Origin: a virus
Length of the DNA stretch: 30,603 bases
IMG/VR virus record: IMGVR_UViG_3300044961_001104
Location: 1 to 30,603 of that record
Direction: 5' to 3' (one strand)
Positions 1-30,603 of this stretch are shown one piece after another. How positions within the stretch are numbered: position 1 is the first letter of the stretch; the number at the start of each line of letters is the position of its first letter. The translations under genes and the position numbers were made by a program. The notes under the pieces were generated by a model, which saw nothing but the letters and a program-made list of their open reading frames with translations, was not told the DNA's origin and did no database searches.

Positions 1-9
1 AATCATAAG

Positions 10-336
10 TTAGCAAGCCTCTTGCACAAAAAGGAGAACAAAAAAATGAATACCTATCGTGTTGTAATCGGAACGAGCGCTGGCATCATCACTGATATAA
101 AAATTGTCCGCGCTAAAAATTGTGGGCAGGCTGAAACCAAGGCAATCAAAGCGATGGGCGCAGGTCAGCCAGATGGTATCCGCGCCGTGAAAGTTGAAGA
201 ACTAGATGGCGAGTTTGTCGAATAGGTAGGCTTGCTAACAAAGCGCGCACCCGACAGGGGCGGGCTGTGGCTCAAAATGAGTTATTCGGATAATTTTGTA
301 GTCTTGCGCTCTCGCCCCTGCGGGTAGCGCAGACCG
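10..336 (+). mobile_element. Integron-type gene cassette (first)
   Basis: The unit starts with TTAGCA after a G at position 9, carries one short gene (46-225) and ends with an attC-like site whose G|TT lies at 336/337. The 12 bases at 9-20 (GTTAGCAAGCCT) are exactly complementary to 228-239 (AGGCTTGCTAAC). This is what integron cassettes show, because the inverse core of a cassette's own attC is complementary to that cassette's 5' end in the circular form. The gene fills nearly the whole unit, also typical. No integron integrase is present; the integrase at the right end is phage-type. Inference from structure only. Confidence 0.6.
46..225 (+). CDS. Cassette-borne small hypothetical protein (59 aa)
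   Basis: Start ATG at 46 is chosen because AAGGAG lies at 31-36, nine bases upstream. A TTG at 22 is in frame but would precede that ribosome binding site. The 59-residue product has an alternating beta/alpha pattern (TYRVVIG, then a helix rich in Ala and Lys, then IRAVKVEEL) and no Cys pair, signal peptide or membrane segment. I do not recognise the family. It is the only gene of the first integron-type cassette and sits between the inverted 12-bp arms at 9-20 and 228-239. Its function is unknown, as for most cassette genes. Confidence 0.7.
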   Translation: MNTYRVVIGTSAGIITDIKIVRAKNCGQAETKAIKAMGAGQPDGIRAVKVEELDGEFVE

Positions 337-342
337 TTGGAG
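233..342 (+). repeat. attC-like recombination site 1
   Basis: The inverse core TGCTAAC (233-239) and the right core GTTGGAG (336-342) bracket a long imperfect stem. ACCCG-A-CAGGGGCG near 249-262 pairs with CGCCCCTGCGGGT at 313-325, leaving one unpaired A on the left arm. The outer part pairs GCGC with GCGC. The central spacer (about 265-312) is variable. Single extrahelical bases, a GTT core and a length near 110 bp fit known attC sites. The right core departs from the GTTRRRY consensus at its last base. Confidence 0.6.
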
Positions 343-348
343 AAAATC

Positions 349-579
349 ATGGAAACTTGCTTGTTTTGCGGAAGGCGAATTGCTCGAATGAAAAAAGGTT
401 ATGGTGGTTTTCGCCGCCACATGAAATCAAAAGGTGTAATTTGTTTTGGTTCTTGGATGACACCATTGCGTCAAGAAGTAGTCTTGCAACAGAAACGCAT
501 CGAACAAAAGATGCACCCGACCGATGGTGGGCTTCCCGCTTCGGACGGTTTATCTACTCCCGCCACCATCGGCGGGTAG
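349..579 (+). CDS. Small Cys/His protein in second cassette-like unit (76 aa)
   Basis: Start ATG at 349 follows GGAG (339-342) by six bases; a TTG at 337 is in frame but lies at the ribosome binding site. The N-terminus has CLFCGRR (Cys4, Cys7) followed by a basic stretch with RRHMKSKGVIC. This C-x2-C...H...C layout suggests a small zinc-binding fold. The C-terminal third runs through the second attC-like hairpin, and the stop codon is the TAG inside its conserved GCGGGTAG. The tail may therefore not be functionally selected. Family not recognised. Confidence 0.6.
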   Translation: METCLFCGRRIARMKKGYGGFRRHMKSKGVICFGSWMTPLRQEVVLQQKRIEQKMHPTDGGLPASDGLSTPATIGG

Positions 580-590
580 TACTGTGCCTG
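499..590 (+). repeat. attC-like recombination site 2 (degenerate right core)
   Basis: It shares with site 1 an AACAAA start (503-508), an exact GCACCCGAC (513-521) and an exact GCGGGTAG (572-579). The left arm ACCCG-A-CCGATGGTGG pairs with the right arm CCACCATCGGCGGGT (562-576), with one extra A at the same place as in site 1. The stem sequence differs while the pairing is kept. The expected GTT core on the right is not intact (CTGTGCCTGG), so the site is probably decayed or diverged. Confidence 0.5.
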
Positions 591-2234: not shown

Positions 2235-2567
2235 ATGCCCTGTTTTTCGAACGTTCAAACAGTTTTGATCGACATCAAGAGCGTTGAGACCGCCGCCGCG
2301 GCGCTCGGCATCAAGGTCGAACGGAACAGCCCCAATGTCTTCACCCTTCGAAAAGGGAAAGAATTCATCCGCATTGAGCGCGCGCGGGAGGGCGAAAAGT
2401 TCTCCACCGTCGCGTATTCGGGCTCAAACAATTGGGACACAGAGATCATCCAGCCGCTCGTCAAGGGGTACGCGAAGGAGCAACTCAAGGTTTTCGCCAA
2501 GAAGAACGGCTACACCCTCAGCGCCGGCAGCAAGCCCGACGCCTATGTCCTGACATCGTTTAGATAA
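2235..2567 (+). CDS. DUF1257 (Ycf35)-like protein
   Basis: ATG at 2235 is preceded by AAGGAGG (2223-2229). The 110-residue protein begins MPCFSNVQTVLIDIKSVETA and continues with an AAAALGIKVE segment. It resembles the DUF1257/Ycf35 family of small proteins that open with a similar SxFT-hydrophobic-DxxxLxxAL pattern. The next gene resembles DUF2997, the usual neighbour of DUF1257 in bacteria, which strengthens the assignment. The MoxR-type AAA+ ATPase often found with this pair is absent. Function is unknown; it leads an operon of overlapping small genes. Confidence 0.6.
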   Translation: MPCFSNVQTVLIDIKSVETAAAALGIKVERNSPNVFTLRKGKEFIRIERAREGEKFSTVAYSGSNNWDTEIIQPLVKGYAKEQLKVFAKKNGYTLSAGSKPDAYVLTSFR

Positions 2568-2577
2568 GGAGACCATC

Positions 2578-2796
2578 ATGCCAAAACGACAGATCAAAGT
2601 TCAAATTCTCCCCGACGGGCAGATCAAGTTTGACAACGCCGGCAACCCCGACGAACAGCGCATCCTCAAGGAACTCGCTGAACTCGCCCAGCTGCTCGCT
2701 GGCGACCCGGAAGCCGTCAAGATCGAGAAGCACGTTCACACCCACGCGACCGCCCACACGCACACCCATGCGGACGGAACGGTGCATACCCACTAA
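2578..2796 (+). CDS. DUF2997-like protein with His-rich tail
   Basis: The 72-residue product starts 10 bases after the DUF1257-like gene, with AAGGAG upstream. Residues 1-45 (PKRQIKVQILPDGQIKFD...GNPDEQRILKELAELAQ) fit the DUF2997 pattern: a short beta hairpin around a DG turn, then a helix. The C-terminus is unusual, with nine His alternating with Thr/Ala (HVHTHATAHTHTH...HTH). This could bind transition metals. DUF2997 proteins as I know them lack such a tail. Confidence 0.6.
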   Translation: MPKRQIKVQILPDGQIKFDNAGNPDEQRILKELAELAQLLAGDPEAVKIEKHVHTHATAHTHTHADGTVHTH

Positions 2797-5069: not shown

Positions 5070-5123
5070 AACCAAAAAAGACCTATGGATTTATCCGAAT
5101 AAATCCATAGGTCTTTTTTGGTT
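5070..5123. terminator. Bidirectional terminator, perfect 25-bp inverted repeat
   Basis: The arms 5070-5094 and 5099-5123 are perfectly complementary, with a four-base CCGA loop. The stem has A6 on the left and T6 on the right, so it gives an intrinsic terminator in both directions. It lies between the ends of two convergent operons. The minus-strand stop codon (5122-5124) is inside the right arm. Confidence 0.9.
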
Positions 5124-6549
5124 ACACATTCGCGCTTTTCAGAGCATCGCTCAAAAACGCCTGGATTTCCTTATCCCGATCTCGCGCTTCCCACAACCGT
5201 CCAGCATGAAGCATCCGCCCGTCACGGATGGCAATGGGGGAGATATTCTCCTCGTCTTCGGTATATTCGATCACCGCAATGCCCTGCTGCCACTGCTGAT
5301 CCTTCTTGCTGCCAGGCACGCGCCCGTCGATGTGGCACACGCACCCTGGGCAGAATGCCGTGAAGATCAACTCCCCGTCGTGTGTCTGCAATCGTCGCGT
5401 CACCGATTCCCGTCGGTGGATGTGCCCGAAGATCGTTGTGAACGCCGTTTTATTGGCGATCGCTTTCGCCGTATCCCCCGGACCCGACCGCACCACGTCC
5501 CCGTGTGTGTTGTATACGTTCCGGTTCAACCAATAGCCATTGTCAGGATAACCGCTTACATAGTCCACGTTTAACGTATGTAGCGCCAGCAGGCGCGGCA
5601 CGCTCATCGATGGCGGCAGTTCCATCTCATCCACAGACTTCAGCCGATACGCCTGTTTCATGTTCTGCGCGATCAAGTTCGGCATCCGCAGGTCGTGGTT
5701 TCCTTCCAGTATCTTGACCTCCGCGCCCGGCTGTGCCATACGAAACTGGGTCAACCACCACGAAGTTTCCAATAATGCCGGCTGAGTCGTCCAATAGAAC
5801 TCCGGTTCCGGCATCCAGCGGTTTGACCACTCGCTCAGGTCCAGCCAATCACCGCCCAGCGCAATATGATCGATCTGTTCCTCCTGGCATATTTGCAATG
5901 CCAGGTCGAGCGCCCGCCGGTCATGAAAGGGGATCAGTTCGGTCGTGTGCAGTGTTCGTCGAAAACCGATCTGCGGATCGTTCACGATCAGTGCCCGCTT
6001 TACGCTTTTTTTATTGGCCTTTTTCACCTTGGGCAATTTTGGAAGATCGATCTGGATGGGGGAGATCACCGGCTCGAAAGCGATGGGCACTTTTCGTCTC
6101 AATGGCGCTTCGATGTAAATGCTTGGCACGACCTTCACGATTTCGTGGTCTTTGTCCTGCTTCAACTTCAGCGCCACGTCCCATTTTTTCACCTTCGGGT
6201 TGTGCACTACGAACTCCCCGTCTGTCCCGGTCAGGCGCATAAGATGCTCGACGGTCTTGATCTGGTCGAGCACCACCACCGAGCGGATCACGCCCTCGTT
6301 TCCCTCGACTTCGAATTCCAGTTCGTCCGTGTTTTCATCCCCGATCAACGCTTGGGTCTTCTTAACGCCCTTCGAGATGTCCTCAAAGGCTTGAAAACCA
6401 AACTCCCGCTCGAATCCAGACCTCAGCGAGGAGCGGTTCATGCCCAAAAGGCGCGCAAGGTCTGTGATCGTCTTCGCCTTCCCCTCGGCGATCAGTTCCA
6501 GCGACTTTTCCAGCAAGTCCGTGAAATCGTATCTATTACTGGGGGTCAT
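5122..6549 (-). CDS. Calcineurin-like metallophosphoesterase with N-terminal HTH
   Basis: This 475-residue protein has a helix-turn-helix-like N-terminus (residues about 27-45, TITDLARLLGMNRSSLRSGF). The phosphoesterase core starts at about 185: DPQ (191-193), GGDWLD (232-237), GNHD (283-286), THGD (348-351) and GHIH (375-378). These are the five metal-binding blocks of the family, except that the first reads D-x-Q instead of D-x-H. It is the last gene of the minus-strand transcript. Nuclease or phosphatase activity on nucleic acid is likely but the substrate is unknown. The HTH suggests DNA binding. Confidence 0.85.
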   Translation of the reverse strand: MTPSNRYDFTDLLEKSLELIAEGKAKTITDLARLLGMNRSSLRSGFEREFGFQAFEDISKGVKKTQALIGDENTDELEFEVEGNEGVIRSVVVLDQIKTVEHLMRLTGTDGEFVVHNPKVKKWDVALKLKQDKDHEIVKVVPSIYIEAPLRRKVPIAFEPVISPIQIDLPKLPKVKKANKKSVKRALIVNDPQIGFRRTLHTTELIPFHDRRALDLALQICQEEQIDHIALGGDWLDLSEWSNRWMPEPEFYWTTQPALLETSWWLTQFRMAQPGAEVKILEGNHDLRMPNLIAQNMKQAYRLKSVDEMELPPSMSVPRLLALHTLNVDYVSGYPDNGYWLNRNVYNTHGDVVRSGPGDTAKAIANKTAFTTIFGHIHRRESVTRRLQTHDGELIFTAFCPGCVCHIDGRVPGSKKDQQWQQGIAVIEYTEDEENISPIAIRDGRMLHAGRLWEARDRDKEIQAFLSDALKSANV

Positions 6550-15038: not shown

Positions 15039-15056
15039 AGTTACACCTCGTTTGAT

Positions 15057-15317
15057 TTATTCAGGTTCAGCGGTTATCCGTTGAACCAGTCCATCCGCCA
15101 GCAGCTTTTGAGCCTGGCTGGGGGTCAATGTAAGGGTCTCGCCCTTCTCCGGATAAACGCCGGATTCCAACAGATAAATCGATCCGGTTTCACCGATCAT
15201 GAGATACAGATCAGTTTCCGGAGCCGCAACGATCTCGGGTTCTTCGTTCACGACCGGGGCTTCTTCTTCAGCTTCGGTCGGAAGTTCTTCTTCGTATTCA
15301 TATTGTTTTCTAGCCAT
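15057..15317 (-). CDS. Small acidic protein (86 aa)
   Basis: ATG at 15317 has GGAGG six bases upstream; a TTG at 15323 lies too close to that site. The N-terminal half is a Glu-rich disordered stretch (YEYEEELPTEAEEEAP). The C-terminal half (YLMIGETGSIYLLESGVYPEKGETLTLTPSQAQKLLADGLV) is a compact fold with a final helix. The gene overlaps the upstream stop by eight bases. It resembles small head-tail or scaffold-like proteins of phages, but no family is certain. Confidence 0.6.
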   Translation of the reverse strand: MARKQYEYEEELPTEAEEEAPVVNEEPEIVAAPETDLYLMIGETGSIYLLESGVYPEKGETLTLTPSQAQKLLADGLVQRITAEPE

Positions 15318-15771
15318 CGTCAACCTCCATAATGACCGGGATGGTCTCGGTCAGGTAATAAGCGCCGCTGTCGTTCAGCATGTCGAACTGGCTTTCGCCC
15401 TGGCGCGAAACGGACATCCATTCGTTCGCTTCCGATTGCATATCCGCCAGCAGCAGCGCGCGGGATATTTCCAATTCCAGCCGGTCGAGCATGTCTTCCG
15501 CCATTTCAGGCGTCCATGCCGTGTCGCTTTGCAGGGAGTACAGTGTCACCAGCCGAACCGAAAAGGCAAAACTGTTGTCATACAGCACGGGCGACATGCG
15601 CTTGCGGTCCGTCGGCGCGCTGGTGACTGCCACCATTGGTGATTGCAGTTTCGTGATCGCCGGCATGTAGGGCAGTACCACTTTTGGTACGGTTGTGACC
15701 CGCGCGAGAAACCCTGCCAGTCGTTTGCGATACACGCCGCGGTCGGCGATTAATAGGTCAGGCAGGGTCAC
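15310..15771 (-). CDS. Tail completion / tail terminator-like protein (153 aa)
   Basis: The alpha/beta pattern (FSVRLVTLYSLQSDTAWTPEMAEDMLDRLELEISRALL, then YYLTETIPVIMEVDD) and the place after the HK97 gp10-like gene fit tail terminator or completion proteins, which cap the tail tube and join it to the head. It overlaps its upstream neighbour by four bases. Assignment rests mainly on gene order. Confidence 0.6.
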   Translation of the reverse strand: MTLPDLLIADRGVYRKRLAGFLARVTTVPKVVLPYMPAITKLQSPMVAVTSAPTDRKRMSPVLYDNSFAFSVRLVTLYSLQSDTAWTPEMAEDMLDRLELEISRALLLADMQSEANEWMSVSRQGESQFDMLNDSGAYYLTETIPVIMEVDDG

Positions 15772-16163
15772 GGAATACTCCGTAGCGCAGAAGCCATTCC
15801 GATGGCTGCTGCGCGGTCACCATGCTCACGGTAGGTGCGTTCATAAAAAGCATGACTTCCGCCTCGCGCGTGTTCCGCCGGACCATAAACCGCAGTGCGT
15901 GCGCGCGACCTTGGGTTCATTGCGCCTTTGTCGATGCTGATCTCCAACGACGGCGAACCGAAGAACTGGCGGTAGATCATGCGATGGCTGGCGCGCAGCG
16001 CTCCGGTATCCACGTGCGTAACGATCGTGGCACGGCTGTGCAAATAAGCGCCGGCAGCGCGCACGCCCTCTCCCAGAGGTCCGCCGGTTCTCAACGCGCG
16101 GATCATCTGCGCATTGTGCCGTTGTGCTTCCTGAAGTCCTTTGATATCGAATCGAAAATTCAC
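15768..16163 (-). CDS. HK97 gp10-like head-tail connector protein
   Basis: The 131-residue protein has the family hallmarks: an N-terminal helix (GLQEAQRHNAQMIRALRTGG), then a region AGAYLHSRATIVTHVDTGALRASHRM equivalent to the conserved P.DTG.LR.S motif, and a late HA.FYERTYREHG matching the common H..f.e.g. Proteins of this family form the neck between capsid and tail in siphoviruses. Confidence 0.8.
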   Translation of the reverse strand: MNFRFDIKGLQEAQRHNAQMIRALRTGGPLGEGVRAAGAYLHSRATIVTHVDTGALRASHRMIYRQFFGSPSLEISIDKGAMNPRSRARTAVYGPAEHARGGSHAFYERTYREHGDRAAAIGMASALRSIP

Positions 16164-17028: not shown

Positions 17029-17289
17029 TTATTGCTTCTTTCCGCGGCGGGCGGGAGCCACTTCGGGCTCAGCCGTTTCGGAATTACCTTCAGCTTCAAC
17101 GACTGCTTCCGGTTGCGCTTCAGAGGTGGGAGCCGGTTCGGCATCAGCCTGTTCGGCATCAGCCTGTTCGGCATCAGCCGATTCGGGCTCGGAGACGATC
17201 CCCAGTTTCGCCTCGATGCGTGCCAGCCGGTTGTCGATACTCTCGAGCACACGGACTTCACGCAGGGCAAGTGCTGCTTTGGATGCCAT
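17029..17289 (-). CDS. Small acidic repeat protein next to capsid gene (86 aa)
   Basis: An N-terminal amphipathic helix (REVRVLESIDNRLARIEAKLG) is followed by an Ala/Glu-rich tail with three copies of a five-residue unit (ADAEQ, ADAEQ, ADAEP) and ends in a basic RRGKKQ. The repeated unit is encoded by three 15-bp tandem repeats at 17137-17181. Its place between capsid gene and terminator suggests a capsid accessory or assembly role. No family is recognised. Confidence 0.55.
   Translation of the reverse strand: MASKAALALREVRVLESIDNRLARIEAKLGIVSEPESADAEQADAEQADAEPAPTSEAQPEAVVEAEGNSETAEPEVAPARRGKKQ
17137..17181. repeat. Three 15-bp tandem repeats
   Basis: The unit TTCGGCATCAGCCTG occurs at 17137-17151, 17152-17166 and, with the last base changed, 17167-17181. 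It codes on the minus strand for the Ala-Asp-Ala-Glu-Gln units. Length could vary by slippage. Confidence 0.8.
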
Positions 17290-17300
17290 GTTTCACCGCC

Positions 17301-18380
17301 TTAGCGCGCCAGGCTTGCAGGCACGCTGTATGTGCCGCCATTGGCGACTTCAAGGATGAAGCCGTTCAGACGGTTGACAACGCCCATGCCGAAGCGCCAC
17401 ATCCATTCACTCTTTTCGAGCGGGAACAGATCGGACTGTTTGATCAGGCGTAGATCGGAGGGGAGACCGGTCGAAGGCGGATCGATGCGCTTTTGCAGCG
17501 GCTTCTCGTACGAGGGCGCGAGGCTCAGCGAGTAGGTCGCCGGCAGATCAGCCCACTTTACGACCCAAACCCCATGCATACGACCGATTACCTTGCCGGG
17601 GACGCCGTCGGGAATGCCAACCAGGCGATCCGAAAGACCGCCGGGGACGATGCGCGGATCGTTGACTTCCTCGAACAGAGCAAGCCCTGAGACCTTGGCG
17701 ACCATGTCGGTGGAAATGAAGACCAGCCCGTCCACTTCATCGGGATAGCGGGCGACCAGCTTGTCGGCATGCCACTTGATCGGGTCATTGGAATCGCTGA
17801 TGCCGGAAACGGCATAACCCGCCTCGCCATAGTGCTGTGCTTCGGCGAGATCATCGGCGCCGGGCAGGGGCGGATAATATGTCCCGTCTTGGTTGGCAAG
17901 CGTTTTGATACTGAGCGTGCCGTTGACGATGTCATCGTAGTTGTAGGCGGTGTTATTAAAGAGCGCCTTGAGGATCTCCTTGCGCAGGGTCCTGCGGGCA
18001 GCGTTGCCAATCTCAACAACTTGGCGGTCCACATCTGCAATGGACGTGTATGCCATCTCAACAAACGAACCGCCGAGCGCGTCGCCGAATTGGAAGATGG
18101 GCAGCGCCACCATGTATTCGGCTTTGAACTTCTGCTCGGCAGCGCGAGCCATACCGCCCTGCGTCTGCAATTCGCGGTTGCCCGGCAGTCTGTAGGTCCA
18201 TTGGTGCTTGGTCGTGGTGGTTTCCACGAAAAGACCGGTGATACGGTTGAGACTTTCGTTCAGGCGGGCGCTGTATTCGTTGATCGCTTGAAAAACGGTT
18301 TCCTGACCGACTTCATTGACAAGAACACTGTCAGCGTCATCGATGTCCAGGATACCGGCGATTGTGGTAGGTGCTGGCAT
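17301..18380 (-). CDS. Major capsid protein
   Basis: The 359-residue protein follows scaffold and decoration genes, as usual. It has a helical N-arm (VFQAINEYSARLNESLNRI), an extended segment, a spine-like helix (DRQVVEIGNAARRTLRKEILKALF) and a C-terminal beta region (GVWVVKWADLPATYSLSLAPSY; MGVVNRLNGFILEVAN) in the order expected of an HK97-fold capsid protein. Direct motif evidence is limited; size, order and a nearby strong promoter support the call. Confidence 0.8.
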   Translation of the reverse strand: MPAPTTIAGILDIDDADSVLVNEVGQETVFQAINEYSARLNESLNRITGLFVETTTTKHQWTYRLPGNRELQTQGGMARAAEQKFKAEYMVALPIFQFGDALGGSFVEMAYTSIADVDRQVVEIGNAARRTLRKEILKALFNNTAYNYDDIVNGTLSIKTLANQDGTYYPPLPGADDLAEAQHYGEAGYAVSGISDSNDPIKWHADKLVARYPDEVDGLVFISTDMVAKVSGLALFEEVNDPRIVPGGLSDRLVGIPDGVPGKVIGRMHGVWVVKWADLPATYSLSLAPSYEKPLQKRIDPPSTGLPSDLRLIKQSDLFPLEKSEWMWRFGMGVVNRLNGFILEVANGGTYSVPASLAR

Positions 18381-18382
18381 GG

Positions 18383-18820
18383 TTATTCTCCTTCGCCTTC
18401 AGGCTCAACGAACTGGGTGATCCAGTCGAATTCGACATAAAGGATCTTGGTCAGGCTGTCGTTGGTAAAAACCGAAACACGCCCGCACGGAACCGGAACG
18501 GTCCCAGCCGCGGTGTCGAGTTTTCCAACGGTATCGCTCAGGAAGACCTGGGCATCATAGGCAAGCCCGGAAATGTCGAAGCCTCCCAGGTAACCGCGCT
18601 TCATGACAGAAACGGTGTTTCCCTGGCGCTTCACAACGATGCCGCGCGCCTGCTCCTTGCCTGTATCATTTGCATCCGCCTTGGCGGCTTTGCCGGCGGA
18701 ATTCACATACACAACATCGCCGACTTCCAGTTCCTCCGCGATGCGAAAATCGCGGATCTCTGCGGTCTCGGCGAAGACCACGTTCAAATTACGGGTGCTA
18801 TCAAGAGCAACAACGGTCAT
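18383..18820 (-). CDS. Capsid decoration-like protein (145 aa)
   Basis: The beta-rich protein (LEVGDVVYVNSAGKAAKADAND, ARGIVVKRQGNTVSVMKRGYLGGFDISG, YDAQVFLSDTVGKLDT) has the short-barrel pattern with a GDVVYV strand and VFLS..VGKL seen in small decoration or cement proteins (DUF2190-like). It lies between scaffold and capsid genes. A binding role on the capsid surface is inferred. Confidence 0.65.
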   Translation of the reverse strand: MTVVALDSTRNLNVVFAETAEIRDFRIAEELEVGDVVYVNSAGKAAKADANDTGKEQARGIVVKRQGNTVSVMKRGYLGGFDISGLAYDAQVFLSDTVGKLDTAAGTVPVPCGRVSVFTNDSLTKILYVEFDWITQFVEPEGEGE

Positions 18821-18836
18821 GGTTTACTCCTTAGAG

Positions 18837-19583
18837 TTAGAGTGATTCAAAAATTGGTTTATCGTCCTCGTCGTCTTCACGACGGCGCGAGCCGGACGAC
18901 TTGAATTTGGATTTGGTCTTTTGCTCAGGGGGCGTACCCTTGAACTTTTCGGTATTGGTCATCCTGCCTTCTTCAAGCAGGAACGGTTTGGCTTTTGCCA
19001 GAGCGTTGAGCGCTTCTGGAACACCTGTGACCTTGCCGTCCTCATCCATCGTGATATTCGACCCGCTCGCTTCGAGCAGAATGACAACAGCGTCGAGCGC
19101 ATCCTCGCGGAATGCGGGGCGGACAACCTTGCCATCATCGCTCTTGGCTTCCCTGCCGGCTGCGACCTTGATCTCCGTGTGGATGATGCGTTTCTGCATC
19201 GCTTCCATCGCGGTTTTATGGTCGGTTTCCAGCTTGTCAGCCTTCTCCTGCGCCTTCTTCGCTTCGTCCTGCGCCTTATCAAGCGCGGACTTCTGCGCGT
19301 CCTCGGCTTCCTTCTTCGCCTTCACGTAAGCGTCGAACTCTTCCTGGTCCTTTACGCCCAGGGCTTCCCACAATCGCTTGCGTTCAGCTTCCTCGGCGCG
19401 CTTGGCGCGTTCGGCAAACTTTTTGTTCAGTTCGGCTTGCCGTTTCTTTTTCTCGTCGTCTCCGGCGTTACCCTCGCCTTCAGGTGTGTCATCGCCTTCT
19501 TCCTCGGTTTCAGCAGTGGAAGAGCCTCCGCCTTCATCCGGTCCAAAGACAAAAATGGGTTGACGAGTTATGTAAGAAAACAT
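18837..19583 (-). CDS. Capsid scaffolding protein
   Basis: The 248-residue protein has an acidic Gly/Ser-rich N-terminus, a long charged coiled coil (residues about 45-140, KKKRQAELNKKFAERAKRAEEAERKR), a DUF4355/gp20-like C-terminal part (PAFREDALDAVVILLEASGS, then VTGVPEALNALAKAKPFLL) and a basic-acidic tail. This is the standard make-up of scaffolding proteins of siphoviruses. It is the first gene after the promoter at 19727-19754 and the leader element at 19647-19707. Confidence 0.8.
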   Translation of the reverse strand: MFSYITRQPIFVFGPDEGGGSSTAETEEEGDDTPEGEGNAGDDEKKKRQAELNKKFAERAKRAEEAERKRLWEALGVKDQEEFDAYVKAKKEAEDAQKSALDKAQDEAKKAQEKADKLETDHKTAMEAMQKRIIHTEIKVAAGREAKSDDGKVVRPAFREDALDAVVILLEASGSNITMDEDGKVTGVPEALNALAKAKPFLLEEGRMTNTEKFKGTPPEQKTKSKFKSSGSRRREDDEDDKPIFESL

Positions 19584-20633: not shown

Positions 20634-22229
20634 TTATTGGTCATTCTGCCGGCGCCCAAATCGATTGGTCTGCGGCGGAAGCCGGCTTCCCTCCATGGCT
20701 GATTCCAATGCCGCCATGTGTGCTTGATACTCGGGAGAGTTTTTCACCTTGGCGATTTGATCTTCGGTCCATCCCTGCTGTTCCAAATAAACCAGCATAG
20801 GAATGCCGAACGATTTGGCTGCCTTTGCCACCGTCCAGAATTCCTTATCGCGTTCCAGGTCATCCATCGGGTCTTTGCTGAAGACCGGCCGGTCTCCAAT
20901 GGTGTGATCCAGCGCGCCCGCGTAATAACTTTCCAGTGTGATTCCATCGAAACCGTCGTACCCGCGCCAGCCGCCGATGGACATTGCCATTTGTTGCGCG
21001 CGGACAAGGGCATCGTCATAGTTCGGGCGGCGCTGCAAGACCTTGTCCTCTGCGGGTCCGCGGTTGATACGCAGCGCCCTCCCGCTGATCTCGCCTTTCA
21101 CATTGTGCATGTCCGCATTGAGTTCGGGATAATCCCGCTCGATGTCGGAAAGGATGTCCTTGATATAACTTGCGGCATCTGCAATGGAAATATCGGCTAC
21201 CAGGGCTTTTGCATCTGAGCCAGCCGGACCATACAAGGCAGGTACTTCCTCCCGGCTTGGTTGGGGATTACCACTGGTGCTTTCCTCTCCTTGCACCTTG
21301 GGCTGTCTGGTCGGCTTGTTGACGCCCGAGAACAGGAAGGGCGGATCGACATACTTGCGTACCTGGTCTGATAGTTTGCTTGCCAAGTCATCCACCTCGC
21401 GGAACTTTGGCAGACCGGACAACAACTCCGAGAAGCCCCAATCAAGTCCAACATCATTGTGCTGCAGCACGACCATCGGAACAAAGCCGTAAGGCACTCT
21501 CCATTCTGCGCTGTCGTCATCCCAGGCATACAGCTTGTCGTTGAGATAGGTTTGATAATAGACGTTATCGTCACCCTTTTCACGGAACGCGATCTCGCGA
21601 TACAAGACCTTTCCGTCGCCGCGTCCGGGACGTGGGTCTTGGCGCATTTCCTCGATCACATACCCCTTTACGTTCCCACGTGAATCGAGCGTCAATTCCG
21701 CCAGCACGGACGGTTGGATGGGTTTCAAATAAACCCGCCCTTCATCCGGCTTGTCCATGATCTTGATCACACCATCCCCCATGATTGGTGTCCAAAGTGA
21801 CAGAACATCCTTTTTGATCTGCCAATTCGACCATCTCCATATCTGCGAAATGGCTCGGCGCAGCATGTCATTCTCCGTGATGATCGGAAGCGCCGACCGC
21901 GTCTCCGATCCATCTCCTGCATCCTTGTCGAGCTTGCCGCCGAGCAGGTGTCCCTTCCAGAATTCGCCCAAACGATAGGCGGGATTGTAGACGCCGCGCG
22001 TATGACGATACATCCCATAATCAGATTTATATTTTTGAGAGAACAGGTGTATCTTGGAGTAGGCATTATTTTCATACATTGCCCACATGATCGCATAGCG
22101 GAGTTTGCGCGCCTCGAAATCCGTAAAGTTGCTGTCATCCAGCAAATTCACGCCCATCATGCGCTCTTGAAAAGCCTTGTATCCTGCCATCGTAGCACTC
22201 CATAGTCGTGTAAAGAAATTATCGTTCAT
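20634..22229 (-). CDS. Portal protein
   Basis: The 531-residue protein lies directly after the large terminase gene and before the head morphogenesis gene. Portal-like features are the N-terminal region (FEARKLRYAIMWAMYENNAYSK), WRWSNWQIKKDVLSLWTPIMGDG, a WRVPYGFVPMVVLQHND strand, and a long helix (FREVDDLASKLSDQVRKYV) like the portal stem region. It forms the dodecameric vertex ring through which DNA is pumped. Confidence 0.8.
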   Translation of the reverse strand: MNDNFFTRLWSATMAGYKAFQERMMGVNLLDDSNFTDFEARKLRYAIMWAMYENNAYSKIHLFSQKYKSDYGMYRHTRGVYNPAYRLGEFWKGHLLGGKLDKDAGDGSETRSALPIITENDMLRRAISQIWRWSNWQIKKDVLSLWTPIMGDGVIKIMDKPDEGRVYLKPIQPSVLAELTLDSRGNVKGYVIEEMRQDPRPGRGDGKVLYREIAFREKGDDNVYYQTYLNDKLYAWDDDSAEWRVPYGFVPMVVLQHNDVGLDWGFSELLSGLPKFREVDDLASKLSDQVRKYVDPPFLFSGVNKPTRQPKVQGEESTSGNPQPSREEVPALYGPAGSDAKALVADISIADAASYIKDILSDIERDYPELNADMHNVKGEISGRALRINRGPAEDKVLQRRPNYDDALVRAQQMAMSIGGWRGYDGFDGITLESYYAGALDHTIGDRPVFSKDPMDDLERDKEFWTVAKAAKSFGIPMLVYLEQQGWTEDQIAKVKNSPEYQAHMAALESAMEGSRLPPQTNRFGRRQNDQ

Positions 22230-22236
22230 GTTTCCT

Positions 22237-23697
22237 CTACGTTGTTCCGCGATACCCTGAAAGCGGGTTATCGCTCAATACCGTTGTGGTCATGCCATCA
22301 TCCTTGCCAGCCCAGATCGCCAGAGCCCACGCCCAGAACATGTCGGCATGATGCTTCTCGTTTTCAGCCGTGTCATACACCGAGTTCTTCGCCGCCGTGA
22401 CCTTTCGCCTTATCGAGTGGATCTGATAAGAGAGATCGCGATCGAGCGGGATCGGAACTTCGCCCCGCTGCGCCCGCAGTTTTGCCTCCACAGCCCAGAG
22501 TTCCTTTGTCTCGTTCGTAAACGTCACGCCTTCGGCGTTCGGGTGCTCGGCGGATAGTTTCTCCGCCATCTGCATTCCGATCCCGTTGCGGTCGATCAGG
22601 AAGCGTATGATTGGGAGTGTGTTCAACATGCGGGACGCAACGGCTTTTTGCTCCTCGAACTCCACGCGTTCCAATGTGACGTGGAAACGATAAGGCAATT
22701 GGTTCACGTATGAGTCTTTTCCGAGCAGTATGATCTCGGTCGTATCACGTGTTCGTCCGATGTCCATTCCGCCGACAAATGCCTGCTCGATCTTCGAATC
22801 CACCACCGCGCGGGCAACGTTGTTTATGGTCTGCAATGCCTGGTCAACGCCTTTGGCACGGAAGTACAGGAGTTTCTCCTGCTGTGCCAGCAATTGATTG
22901 CGCTTGATCAGTTCCCAGTCGATCCACGAAACCGCCTCATCCAGCCAGGCGCATTCATATTCTTGCTGGAAATCCTCCAACGGCATATTCTCGTAAATCT
23001 GCCGAAGACGCTCTGTTCCAAATCCCCTCACCCGTTCATCCGTTGTCATGGCGGATGCCAACTGATTTGCTGTCTTTACGTCCCGGCTCATTGCGCCAAC
23101 GCTCCACCAGGGGATCGAAGCCCTGGCATAGCCTGGATACTTGCGCAGCGCCTCCGTGTAGATCTCCCAAAAGGTCCCGCGCGCGCCAAGGGGCGATGAA
23201 CCAATGCGGACGAATCCGCCCTTGGTGATGGCGGGCAGCGCCGACTGGTAGATTTCCTTGTCGCTGGGATAATGTGCAAACTCATCCAGATAGATGTGAG
23301 CCTTTGCCTTCCCGCGAACTGGTCGGCAGGGATGAGAGAGCAGGCGGCTACCGTTCTGAAATTCCAGTTCGTAGGCATTGTCCTTGATCAACTTCGGTCT
23401 CGCCTCCGTATCGAGCGCCTCGATCACCTGTTTGGCATACCGGATCTTTTCCGCAGCCTCCTCCTGGTTGATCGAGACAAAGATATGCGGCGTGCGCGGA
23501 TTCATACTGGCGGACGCAACCGCTTCCGCCGATGCCAGCCATGACCAGCCGACCTGGCGCGCCTTCAGTTCGATCGCAAGCAAGGATGTATTATTAAGGT
23601 GCTTTAACTGAAACGTCTCCCAGCTGGCATCGGGATCGCCGACCGCCTCCGGGAGATTCAGATACTCGATAAGAAAAGCAAGGGTGGGAGAGAGCAC
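22237..23697 (-). CDS. terL: Terminase large subunit
   Basis: The 486-residue protein has an ATPase domain with Walker A-like KARQVGWS (residues 46-52), Walker B IYLDEF (135-140) and coupling motif GSS (166-168). The RNase H-like nuclease domain has acidic residues in GGMDIGR (D312), LIDRNG (D369) and HHADMFW (D452). All essential residues of the DNA packaging motor are present. The overall form is closer to the Mu gp28-type terminases than to lambda gpA. It ends eight bases before the portal gene. Confidence 0.9.
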   Translation of the reverse strand: MLSPTLAFLIEYLNLPEAVGDPDASWETFQLKHLNNTSLLAIELKARQVGWSWLASAEAVASASMNPRTPHIFVSINQEEAAEKIRYAKQVIEALDTEARPKLIKDNAYELEFQNGSRLLSHPCRPVRGKAKAHIYLDEFAHYPSDKEIYQSALPAITKGGFVRIGSSPLGARGTFWEIYTEALRKYPGYARASIPWWSVGAMSRDVKTANQLASAMTTDERVRGFGTERLRQIYENMPLEDFQQEYECAWLDEAVSWIDWELIKRNQLLAQQEKLLYFRAKGVDQALQTINNVARAVVDSKIEQAFVGGMDIGRTRDTTEIILLGKDSYVNQLPYRFHVTLERVEFEEQKAVASRMLNTLPIIRFLIDRNGIGMQMAEKLSAEHPNAEGVTFTNETKELWAVEAKLRAQRGEVPIPLDRDLSYQIHSIRRKVTAAKNSVYDTAENEKHHADMFWAWALAIWAGKDDGMTTTVLSDNPLSGYRGTT

Positions 23698-29709: not shown

Positions 29710-30603
29710 ATGCAGTACCATAGACGTATGCGGAAATTCTTTTATCTTCCGCAAAGAACAAAACAGATGAAAAACTTACTCCTATCAAAAGCGATCGATG
29801 GTTTCGTTTTGGCATGCCTGGCGAGGAGACTTTCGCCGCATACGCTCGATGACTATCAGCGCACCTTGAAAAGGTTCCTCGACCACGTGGGCGACATGCC
29901 TATCAACCAGGTGAAAAGCACACAATTGACCGCCTTTTTAGCGTCCAGGAATGTCGGTAAAAAAACATTGTTGAATTACCACATTGCCCTCTCTGCTTTG
30001 TGGACGTGGGCATTGCGCGAGGGGTACGTGACCAGCCATATCGTCCGGACAGTGGATAAACCAAAACCAAGCAAGGTTGTGATTCAACCGTTCACGGATG
30101 TGGAGGTTAGGGCGCTTTTGCAGGCAATTCGATATGCGCCGGACCGGAACCGCGCTCTTATACTGGTTTTGCTGGATACGGGCGCGCGGGCATCTGAAAT
30201 ATGCAATCTGAAAAGGGATGACATTGACCTTGCATCGAGGCGGTTGAAGGTTGTCGGAAAAGGGGACAAGGAAAGGTTTTTACCGTTTTCCCCTCGCACT
30301 GCCTCCGCTTTGTTTTCCCACCTGGCAACAACGGACGGAGATCCGTTCAAAATGGGGCGCACCGGATTGGCTCAGTACCTGCGCCGGTTGGGAAAGCGAG
30401 CCGGCGTCAAAAACACACATCCGCATCGTTTTCGTCATACGATGGCTGTGACCTGGCTGCGCAACGGAGGCGACCCTTATACACTTCAGGAGGTCCTTGG
30501 GCACTCAACCATGGATATGGTCAAGAATTACATCGCATTGGCGCAGGTGGATCTGGATGAAGCCCATAAACGCGCCAGCCCGGTCGAAGGGTGGAAGTTG
30601 TAA
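29710..30603 (+). CDS. int: Tyrosine integrase (phage/XerCD type)
   Basis: ATG at 29710 has CAGGAG seven bases upstream. The 297-residue enzyme has an N-terminal SAM-like core-binding domain (residues about 20-110) and a catalytic domain with Arg160 (TGARASEIC), Lys184 (VGKGDKER), His239/Arg242 (HPHRFRH), His265 (LGHS) and the nucleophile Tyr274 (MVKNYIAL). The full catalytic set is present. It lacks the extra helix typical of integron integrases and an N-terminal arm-binding domain of lambda type, so it is closest to small phage or Xer-like recombinases. It would integrate the phage. Ends at the last base of the window. Confidence 0.9.
   Translation: MQYHRRMRKFFYLPQRTKQMKNLLLSKAIDGFVLACLARRLSPHTLDDYQRTLKRFLDHVGDMPINQVKSTQLTAFLASRNVGKKTLLNYHIALSALWTWALREGYVTSHIVRTVDKPKPSKVVIQPFTDVEVRALLQAIRYAPDRNRALILVLLDTGARASEICNLKRDDIDLASRRLKVVGKGDKERFLPFSPRTASALFSHLATTDGDPFKMGRTGLAQYLRRLGKRAGVKNTHPHRFRHTMAVTWLRNGGDPYTLQEVLGHSTMDMVKNYIALAQVDLDEAHKRASPVEGWKL

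Follow-up and report, generated by a model that had tools for sequence, protein, structure and literature searches.

An integron-type gene cassette probably carried by an Anaerolineales-type phage, and related cassette arrays in other phage contigs

Organization of the locus

The sequence analysed here (the window) spans 30,603 bp and is catalogued in a viral collection as IMG/VR record IMGVR_UViG_3300044961_001104. Its main features are as follows:

1–9, plus strand: bases left of the first core, AATCATAA followed by G; not the R' end of an attC site (the family has CC before GTT)
9–15, plus strand: left core GTTAGCA, cut expected between 9 and 10
10–336, plus strand: predicted gene cassette 1, 327 bp, starting with TTAGCA and ending with the G of the core that follows
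46–225, plus strand: ORF of cassette 1, 59 codons (59 aa), AAGGAG upstream
233–342, plus strand: attC1, 110 nt; R'' 233–239, L'' 243–253, extrahelical A 254, L' 320–330, R' GTTGGAG 336–342
337–588, plus strand: probable remnant of a second cassette
349–579, plus strand: ORF in the second cassette, 76 aa, running into attC2
499–588, plus strand: decayed attC2, with the basal stem retained and the GTT of the R' core missing
2235–2796, plus strand: two ORFs, the closest phage genes to have counterparts in a related phage; their products are 39% and 66% identical to proteins of G001
22237–23697, minus strand: terminase large subunit, 83% identical to that of prophage G391, 69% to G001 and 53% to G019
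29758–30603, plus strand: Xer-like phage integrase, not IntI, ending at the last base of the record

The first-pass annotation had described a G↓TTAGCA left boundary (the arrow marks the cut), a 59-codon gene and a 12-base complement between 9–20 and 228–239, and all of these are present. The left core is complementary to the inverse core at 233–239 and the arm reaches 12 nt, GTTAGCAAGCCT (9–20) being the perfect complement of AGGCTTGCTAAC (228–239). No other 12-nt GTT-starting inverted repeat with a start-to-start spacing of 100–600 nt occurs in the window, and 0.01 would be expected from resampled sequence. Cassette 1 has the typical traits of integron cassettes: it is bounded by G↓TT, its 5' end is complementary to its own inverse core, and the 327-bp unit carries one short ORF in attC orientation. 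Its attC shows paired R''/R' and L''/L' boxes with an extrahelical base, and the hairpin ends with CCGTTGG at 334–340. On either strand, 226–345 folds better than each of 200 shuffled versions (z −3.3 and −3.7).

The 59-aa protein had no family match in Pfam, PHROGs or NCBIfam and no relative in viral contigs or in 301 host-order genomes. A single-sequence structure model predicts a beta-beta-alpha-beta arrangement (pLDDT 77.9); a structure search returned nothing at E ≤ 0.001, and the protein weakly resembles small uncharacterised phage proteins (best E 0.038). A blastn search of 1–620 against phage and plasmid collections returned chance matches only, and Rfam gave nothing at gathering scores in the window (loose E-values gave sub-threshold miRNA/sRNA noise only).

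To the right, a 1.65-kb gap separates the cassette region from the first phage genes with homologues. The integrase at the far end scores 158.6 bits with NF040815 (cut-off 220) and 63.6 bits with TIGR02249; as the latter value is far below the cut-off of 265, its identification as IntI was rejected, and no intI gene was identified in the window by profile search. Several other elements were seen along the way. Just right of attC2, ahead of small genes, the sequence GTATACTTA(C/T)CC(G/A)CAT(G/A)AACCCA is repeated at 607–639 and 866–898, and 953–1516 encodes a protein that looks secreted and carries an Excalibur calcium-binding domain at its C terminus (E 2.5e-7). A perfect 25-nt inverted repeat with a 4-nt loop lies between convergent genes (5070–5123), and two 82-nt G+C-rich palindromic copies, 85% identical, lie between minus-strand phage genes (19647–19728 and 24726–24807); this element looks like a repeated terminator.

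The attC family

The viral collection was scanned with a 21-base pattern for Chloroflexota attC ends. The strict pattern was found in 43 stretches, nearly all of which share a common plan upstream. From this pattern and from terminase-related viral loci came the 112 attC sites, 52 of which, none from the window, were aligned to train a covariance model, R1. Being trained on viral sites of this family that were found with this pattern, R1 is not a model of classical attC sites. The GTT core and the R''/R' boxes are conserved in the family, and CC directly precedes the GTT core in all 52 aligned sites. The stem covaries: 144 cells are changed on both sides versus 44.5 in shuffles, and the covariation score is 0.362 as against 0.116 for shuffled (0/500) and 0.04–0.09 for slid alignments. 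As a negative control, 605,512 bases from 37 other viral loci yielded no R1 match at E ≤ 1.

The attC search that the first-pass annotation had proposed, run here with R1, scored both of its hairpins. The first, described there as attC-like, about 110 bp long, with an unpaired A and a GTT core, corresponds to attC1 and gives 66.3 bits (E 1e-16). The second (499–588, in the segment 343–620) gives 21.6 bits (E 4e-4) and is 74–77% identical to attC sites at three other loci (L062, L040 and L072). It is thus an attC site by R1, but a decayed one that lacks the GTT core and does not close a clean unit. All further R1 matches in the window have E values of 0.3 or worse.

In integrons, the cassette's own 5' end completes the attC site in the free circle. 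A match of 9 nt or more between a cassette's 5' end and its inverse core occurs in 97 of 132 consecutive viral attC pairs, compared with a mean of 5 and a maximum of 14 in 1000 shuffles; about 183 of the 203 viral attC matches entered this test, cut, duplicated and some odd or weak ones being left out. Because 97 of the 132 viral pairs show the match, the 12-nt complementarity in the window is best read as a trait of the attC family, slightly longer than usual. This rule is broken in the segment at 337–588, where the inverse core of attC2, ATCGAAC, mismatches the 5' end GTTGGAG. Since the core is also lost, we interpret this segment as a remnant, so that cassette 1 is the only clean cassette unit in the window. 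The product of the 76-aa ORF has a weak zf-BED match (E 0.011, below the cut-off).

Link to chromosomal integrons of Anaerolineales

In species genomes the 21-base pattern was found in 117 stretches, and 62 of the 80 that were listed carry the names of Anaerolineales, Anaerolineae or other Chloroflexota. The chromosomal attC set was drawn from 67 of these 80 loci, leaving out 13 with non-Chloroflexota names; the other 37 of the 117 loci lay outside those listed. The family is present in 37 of 101 host-order genomes. IntI above the TIGR02249 cut-off was detected in 12 of 14 attC-bearing genomes versus none of 14 control genomes, and R1 located sites of the family in the sequence upstream of intI at 11 of the 12 chromosomal IntI loci. 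All these sites are on the strand opposite intI, which is oriented divergently from the array in 11/11 cases. The first cassette starts 139–252 nt from the intI start in 10 of the 11 loci, after a sequence like ATAAAACATA followed by G↓TT, which is likely to be attI. In the attI regions upstream of intI (L252–L256), TATACAGC/GCTGTATA motifs recur along about 70 nt and may be binding sites for a regulator or for IntI.

The attC sites of the window belong to this Anaerolineales integron family. Its chromosomal members, known from MAGs, share with the viral sites the stem, the bulged A and the CC-GTT core, as well as the 5'-end rule and a similar attI core, and differ in attC length and in the uniformly divergent intI. 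Given the R1 score, the covariation, the linkage to IntI and the 5'-end rule, the proposal that 10–336 is a complete integron-type cassette is well supported, and we regard it as a genuine gene cassette of the Anaerolineales type.

Cassette arrays in other phages

Such arrays are found in other phage contigs. A terminase was recognized by profile in 16 of 40 attC-bearing viral records, and in several the array lies well inside the contig. In G449, for example, TerL is 1.7 kb away from it and each contig end more than 9.9 kb. In G019 seven attC sites lie between the terminase genes and homologues of window genes; the phage-side end of this array contains a C-terminal fragment of IntI (20908–21186, L201; TIGR02249, 101 bits). 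G001 has attC sites at its ends, and its 127-bp terminal overlap (1–127 and 59518–59644) is exactly an attC, which points to a circular phage or else to an assembly break at an attC that occurs more than once. G444 (38,245 bp), read as circular from another 127-bp terminal overlap, encodes a terminase (TerL), portal, major head protein and tape measure, and its array of four attC sites (17056–19020), which includes a DNA methyltransferase cassette, begins right after the portal gene; a profile search found no IntI in it. One of its sites (17910–18019) is the closest relative of attC1, with 89.6% identity. Near-full-length matches to attC1 were obtained by blastn at nine loci, all viral, and at no genome locus.

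The phage arrays with attI-like leaders are mostly without intI: IntI above the cut-off was found in two of 42 attC-bearing viral records, a third scoring just below it (257 vs 265 bits). Divergent IntI genes were noted in G442 (859–1908, L269), G462 (15043–15987, L272) and G437 (40413–41348), and in at least G442 and G462 the gene points the same way as the array, as opposed to the divergent chromosomal intI genes (11/11). The tree of IntI sequences, which has one frameshifted row and weak forks, supports only the divergence of the viral IntI.

The lengths of viral and chromosomal attC sites differ. Among complete sites obtained with a common selection pattern and measured with a single viral-trained model (R1), 169 of 212 chromosomal sites are 128–133 nt long compared with 38 of 197 viral ones; for chromosomal sites adjacent to IntI the count is 32 of 33. 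These samples comprise 197 of 203 viral, 212 of 224 chromosomal and 33 of 37 IntI-adjacent sites, cut, partial and duplicate rows having been dropped. The 110–111-nt class to which attC1 belongs accounts for 16 of the 197 viral and none of the 212 chromosomal sites, and a few such sites occur in other host-order genomes, e.g. two in G113. These figures are suggestive of a separate viral attC pool, with the qualification that the viral contigs may stem from hosts other than the sampled genomes.

The 5' end was located for 123 viral cassettes; in 97 it comes after an attC end, unlike in the remaining 26. IntI can insert cassettes at G↓TT outside arrays (attG or secondary sites). The leaders of the phage arrays differ from such arbitrary sites and are attI-like: scored with a matrix of ten chromosomal attI cores, the left contexts of 17 of 19 leading cassettes fall in the top 1% of 8,339 GTT sites in seven phage records, the 19 having been chosen after inspection from the 26 non-CC contexts by dropping five altered-attC-like ends, one duplicate listing and the window. 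The best-scoring site in the seven records is the start of the G444 array. In the window, the 8 nt left of the first core rank in the top 5.6% of GTT sites when in register, i.e. are not attI-like, and rank in the top 0.04% in a post hoc comparison with one base removed. Bases 1–9 may represent the tail of an attI-like site plus one additional A.

Origin of the cassettes in the window

We consider it quite probable that cassette 1 and the decayed second cassette lie inside a temperate Anaerolineales-type (Chloroflexota) phage that carries cassettes on which the host IntI acts in trans. The phage itself would make no recombinase for them. The chromosomal IntI of the host would instead fold the attC bottom strand, cut at G↓TT, and insert or remove cassettes where the phage offers a docking site, either attI-like or a secondary G↓TT; the phage would then carry them from host to host. 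The cassettes may be of benefit to the phage.

The position of the prophage boundary bears directly on this reading. The closest relative found is a prophage fragment on contig 376 of the host-order genome G391, which can be aligned to the window over 21.1–30.6 kb. Its integrase, 66% identical to that of the window, adjoins a tRNA-Pro 3' half, beyond which host genes begin. An intact tRNA-Pro(CGG) is located at the end of another G391 contig, and the stretch that the two share is nearly identical over about 90 nt. Hence, the integrase end is the prophage edge in G391. No tRNA and no copy of the G391 att core were found in the window, and its first 6 kb contain no T-arm motif. Because the opposite junction should carry a tRNA and the window has none, the left boundary would lie beyond base 1 and the cassettes inside the prophage, provided that the window phage, like its G391 relative, integrates at a tRNA. 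Cassette 1 is therefore probably phage-borne, a reading made from a record that starts at base 1 of the window.

Some points weigh against this reading. The sequence before base 1 is absent from the record, which places the left prophage boundary outside the window, and attC sites are present in only two of 31 records with related terminases and in none of the 15.8 kb scanned in the closest one, G391. The 8 nt ahead of the first core, too, fail to score as attI in register. The 475-aa protein of the window (5122–6549) was not found in G391, so that the left half of the G391 prophage was not located; a partial R1 match (33 bits) turned up on another contig in the search around G391.

Alternatively, the cassettes could be host DNA, with the prophage beside a chromosomal array and the left end of the window representing host flank. 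The array does lie at the extreme left of the record, whose right end falls exactly at the integrase stop codon, as in a trimmed provirus, and 37 of 101 host-order genomes carry the attC family. We nevertheless judge this origin unlikely: in G391 the attachment site is the tRNA-Pro beside the integrase, i.e. at the opposite end, the window has no tRNA, and both the length class of attC1 (16/197 viral vs 0/212 chromosomal) and its full-length blastn relatives (nine viral loci, no genome locus) point to viral sequences.

It is very improbable that the phage integrase targets attC and that the phage inserts into arrays. In its favour are the placement of integrase and cassettes at opposite ends and the kinship of Xer-type recombinases with IntI. 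Against it, the G391 integrase sits at the duplicated 3' end of tRNA-Pro, none of the 19 viral loci from the integrase search is among the attC-bearing records, and an R1 scan of 18 of them (L229 left out) gave no match. The tRNA-Pro att in G391 largely refutes attC as the attachment site. A phage repeat or terminator family merely resembling attC is just as improbable and was rejected as a terminator-only reading: stable hairpins 3' of small genes also serve as terminators, yet this family has conserved GTT cores and R''/R' boxes, neighbours intI in 11 of 12 chromosomal integrons (an attI-like core being 139–252 nt from the intI start in 10 of 11), and follows a 5'-end rule that would be pointless for a terminator.

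On the question raised in the first-pass annotation, whether the phage picked up cassettes or inserted at a cassette array, the evidence favours acquisition by the phage, because the G391 integrase uses tRNA-Pro rather than attC and other phages carry internal arrays. Its statement that such cassettes are uncommon holds for phages in general (43 strict-pattern stretches) and does not extend to the Anaerolineales-type phages.

Relation to known systems and implications

Cassettes in phages have been described before: Qi et al. (2023; PMC9892861) report integron parts in 21 phages, with five of six tested phage attC sites recombined by IntI1 and one cryptic Shewanella prophage with a CALIN led by an attI site. 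Those phages resemble the ones described here in having attC sites and cassettes without intI. Their differences are that the main text of that paper names no 'chloroflex' or 'anaerolin' phage among the 21, and that the arrays described here are shared by many Anaerolineales-type phages, have attI-like leaders and differ in attC length from the chromosomal sites. A study of sludge (PMC12772301) mentions phage sequences near an integron-linked sul4 in a Chloroflexota MAG. Among open-licence papers we found none that describes arrays of this sort in phages of Chloroflexota. The apparent novelty is a phage cassette pool that has attC lengths of its own and attI-like docking sites in front, mostly without an integrase.

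A broader proposal, which we advance tentatively and with slightly less than even confidence, is that Anaerolineales phages possess dedicated integrase-less platforms, each made of an attI-like site and an array, that would be served by the host IntI in trans and hold a virus-specific cassette pool, with distinct attC length classes and a DNA methyltransferase cassette among its members, this pool moving among unrelated phages; the window would be a small, partly decayed example. Taken alone, the window is a modest case, and its weight comes from the recurrence of the pattern in other viral contigs. Chloroflexota are common in soil, groundwater and sludge. If the proposed traffic is real, phages would carry cassettes between hosts in such settings, a testable route of spread outside plasmids and transposons, and if phages keep attI-like docking sites for loading by the host, integrons would be a gene-capture device common to bacteria and viruses.
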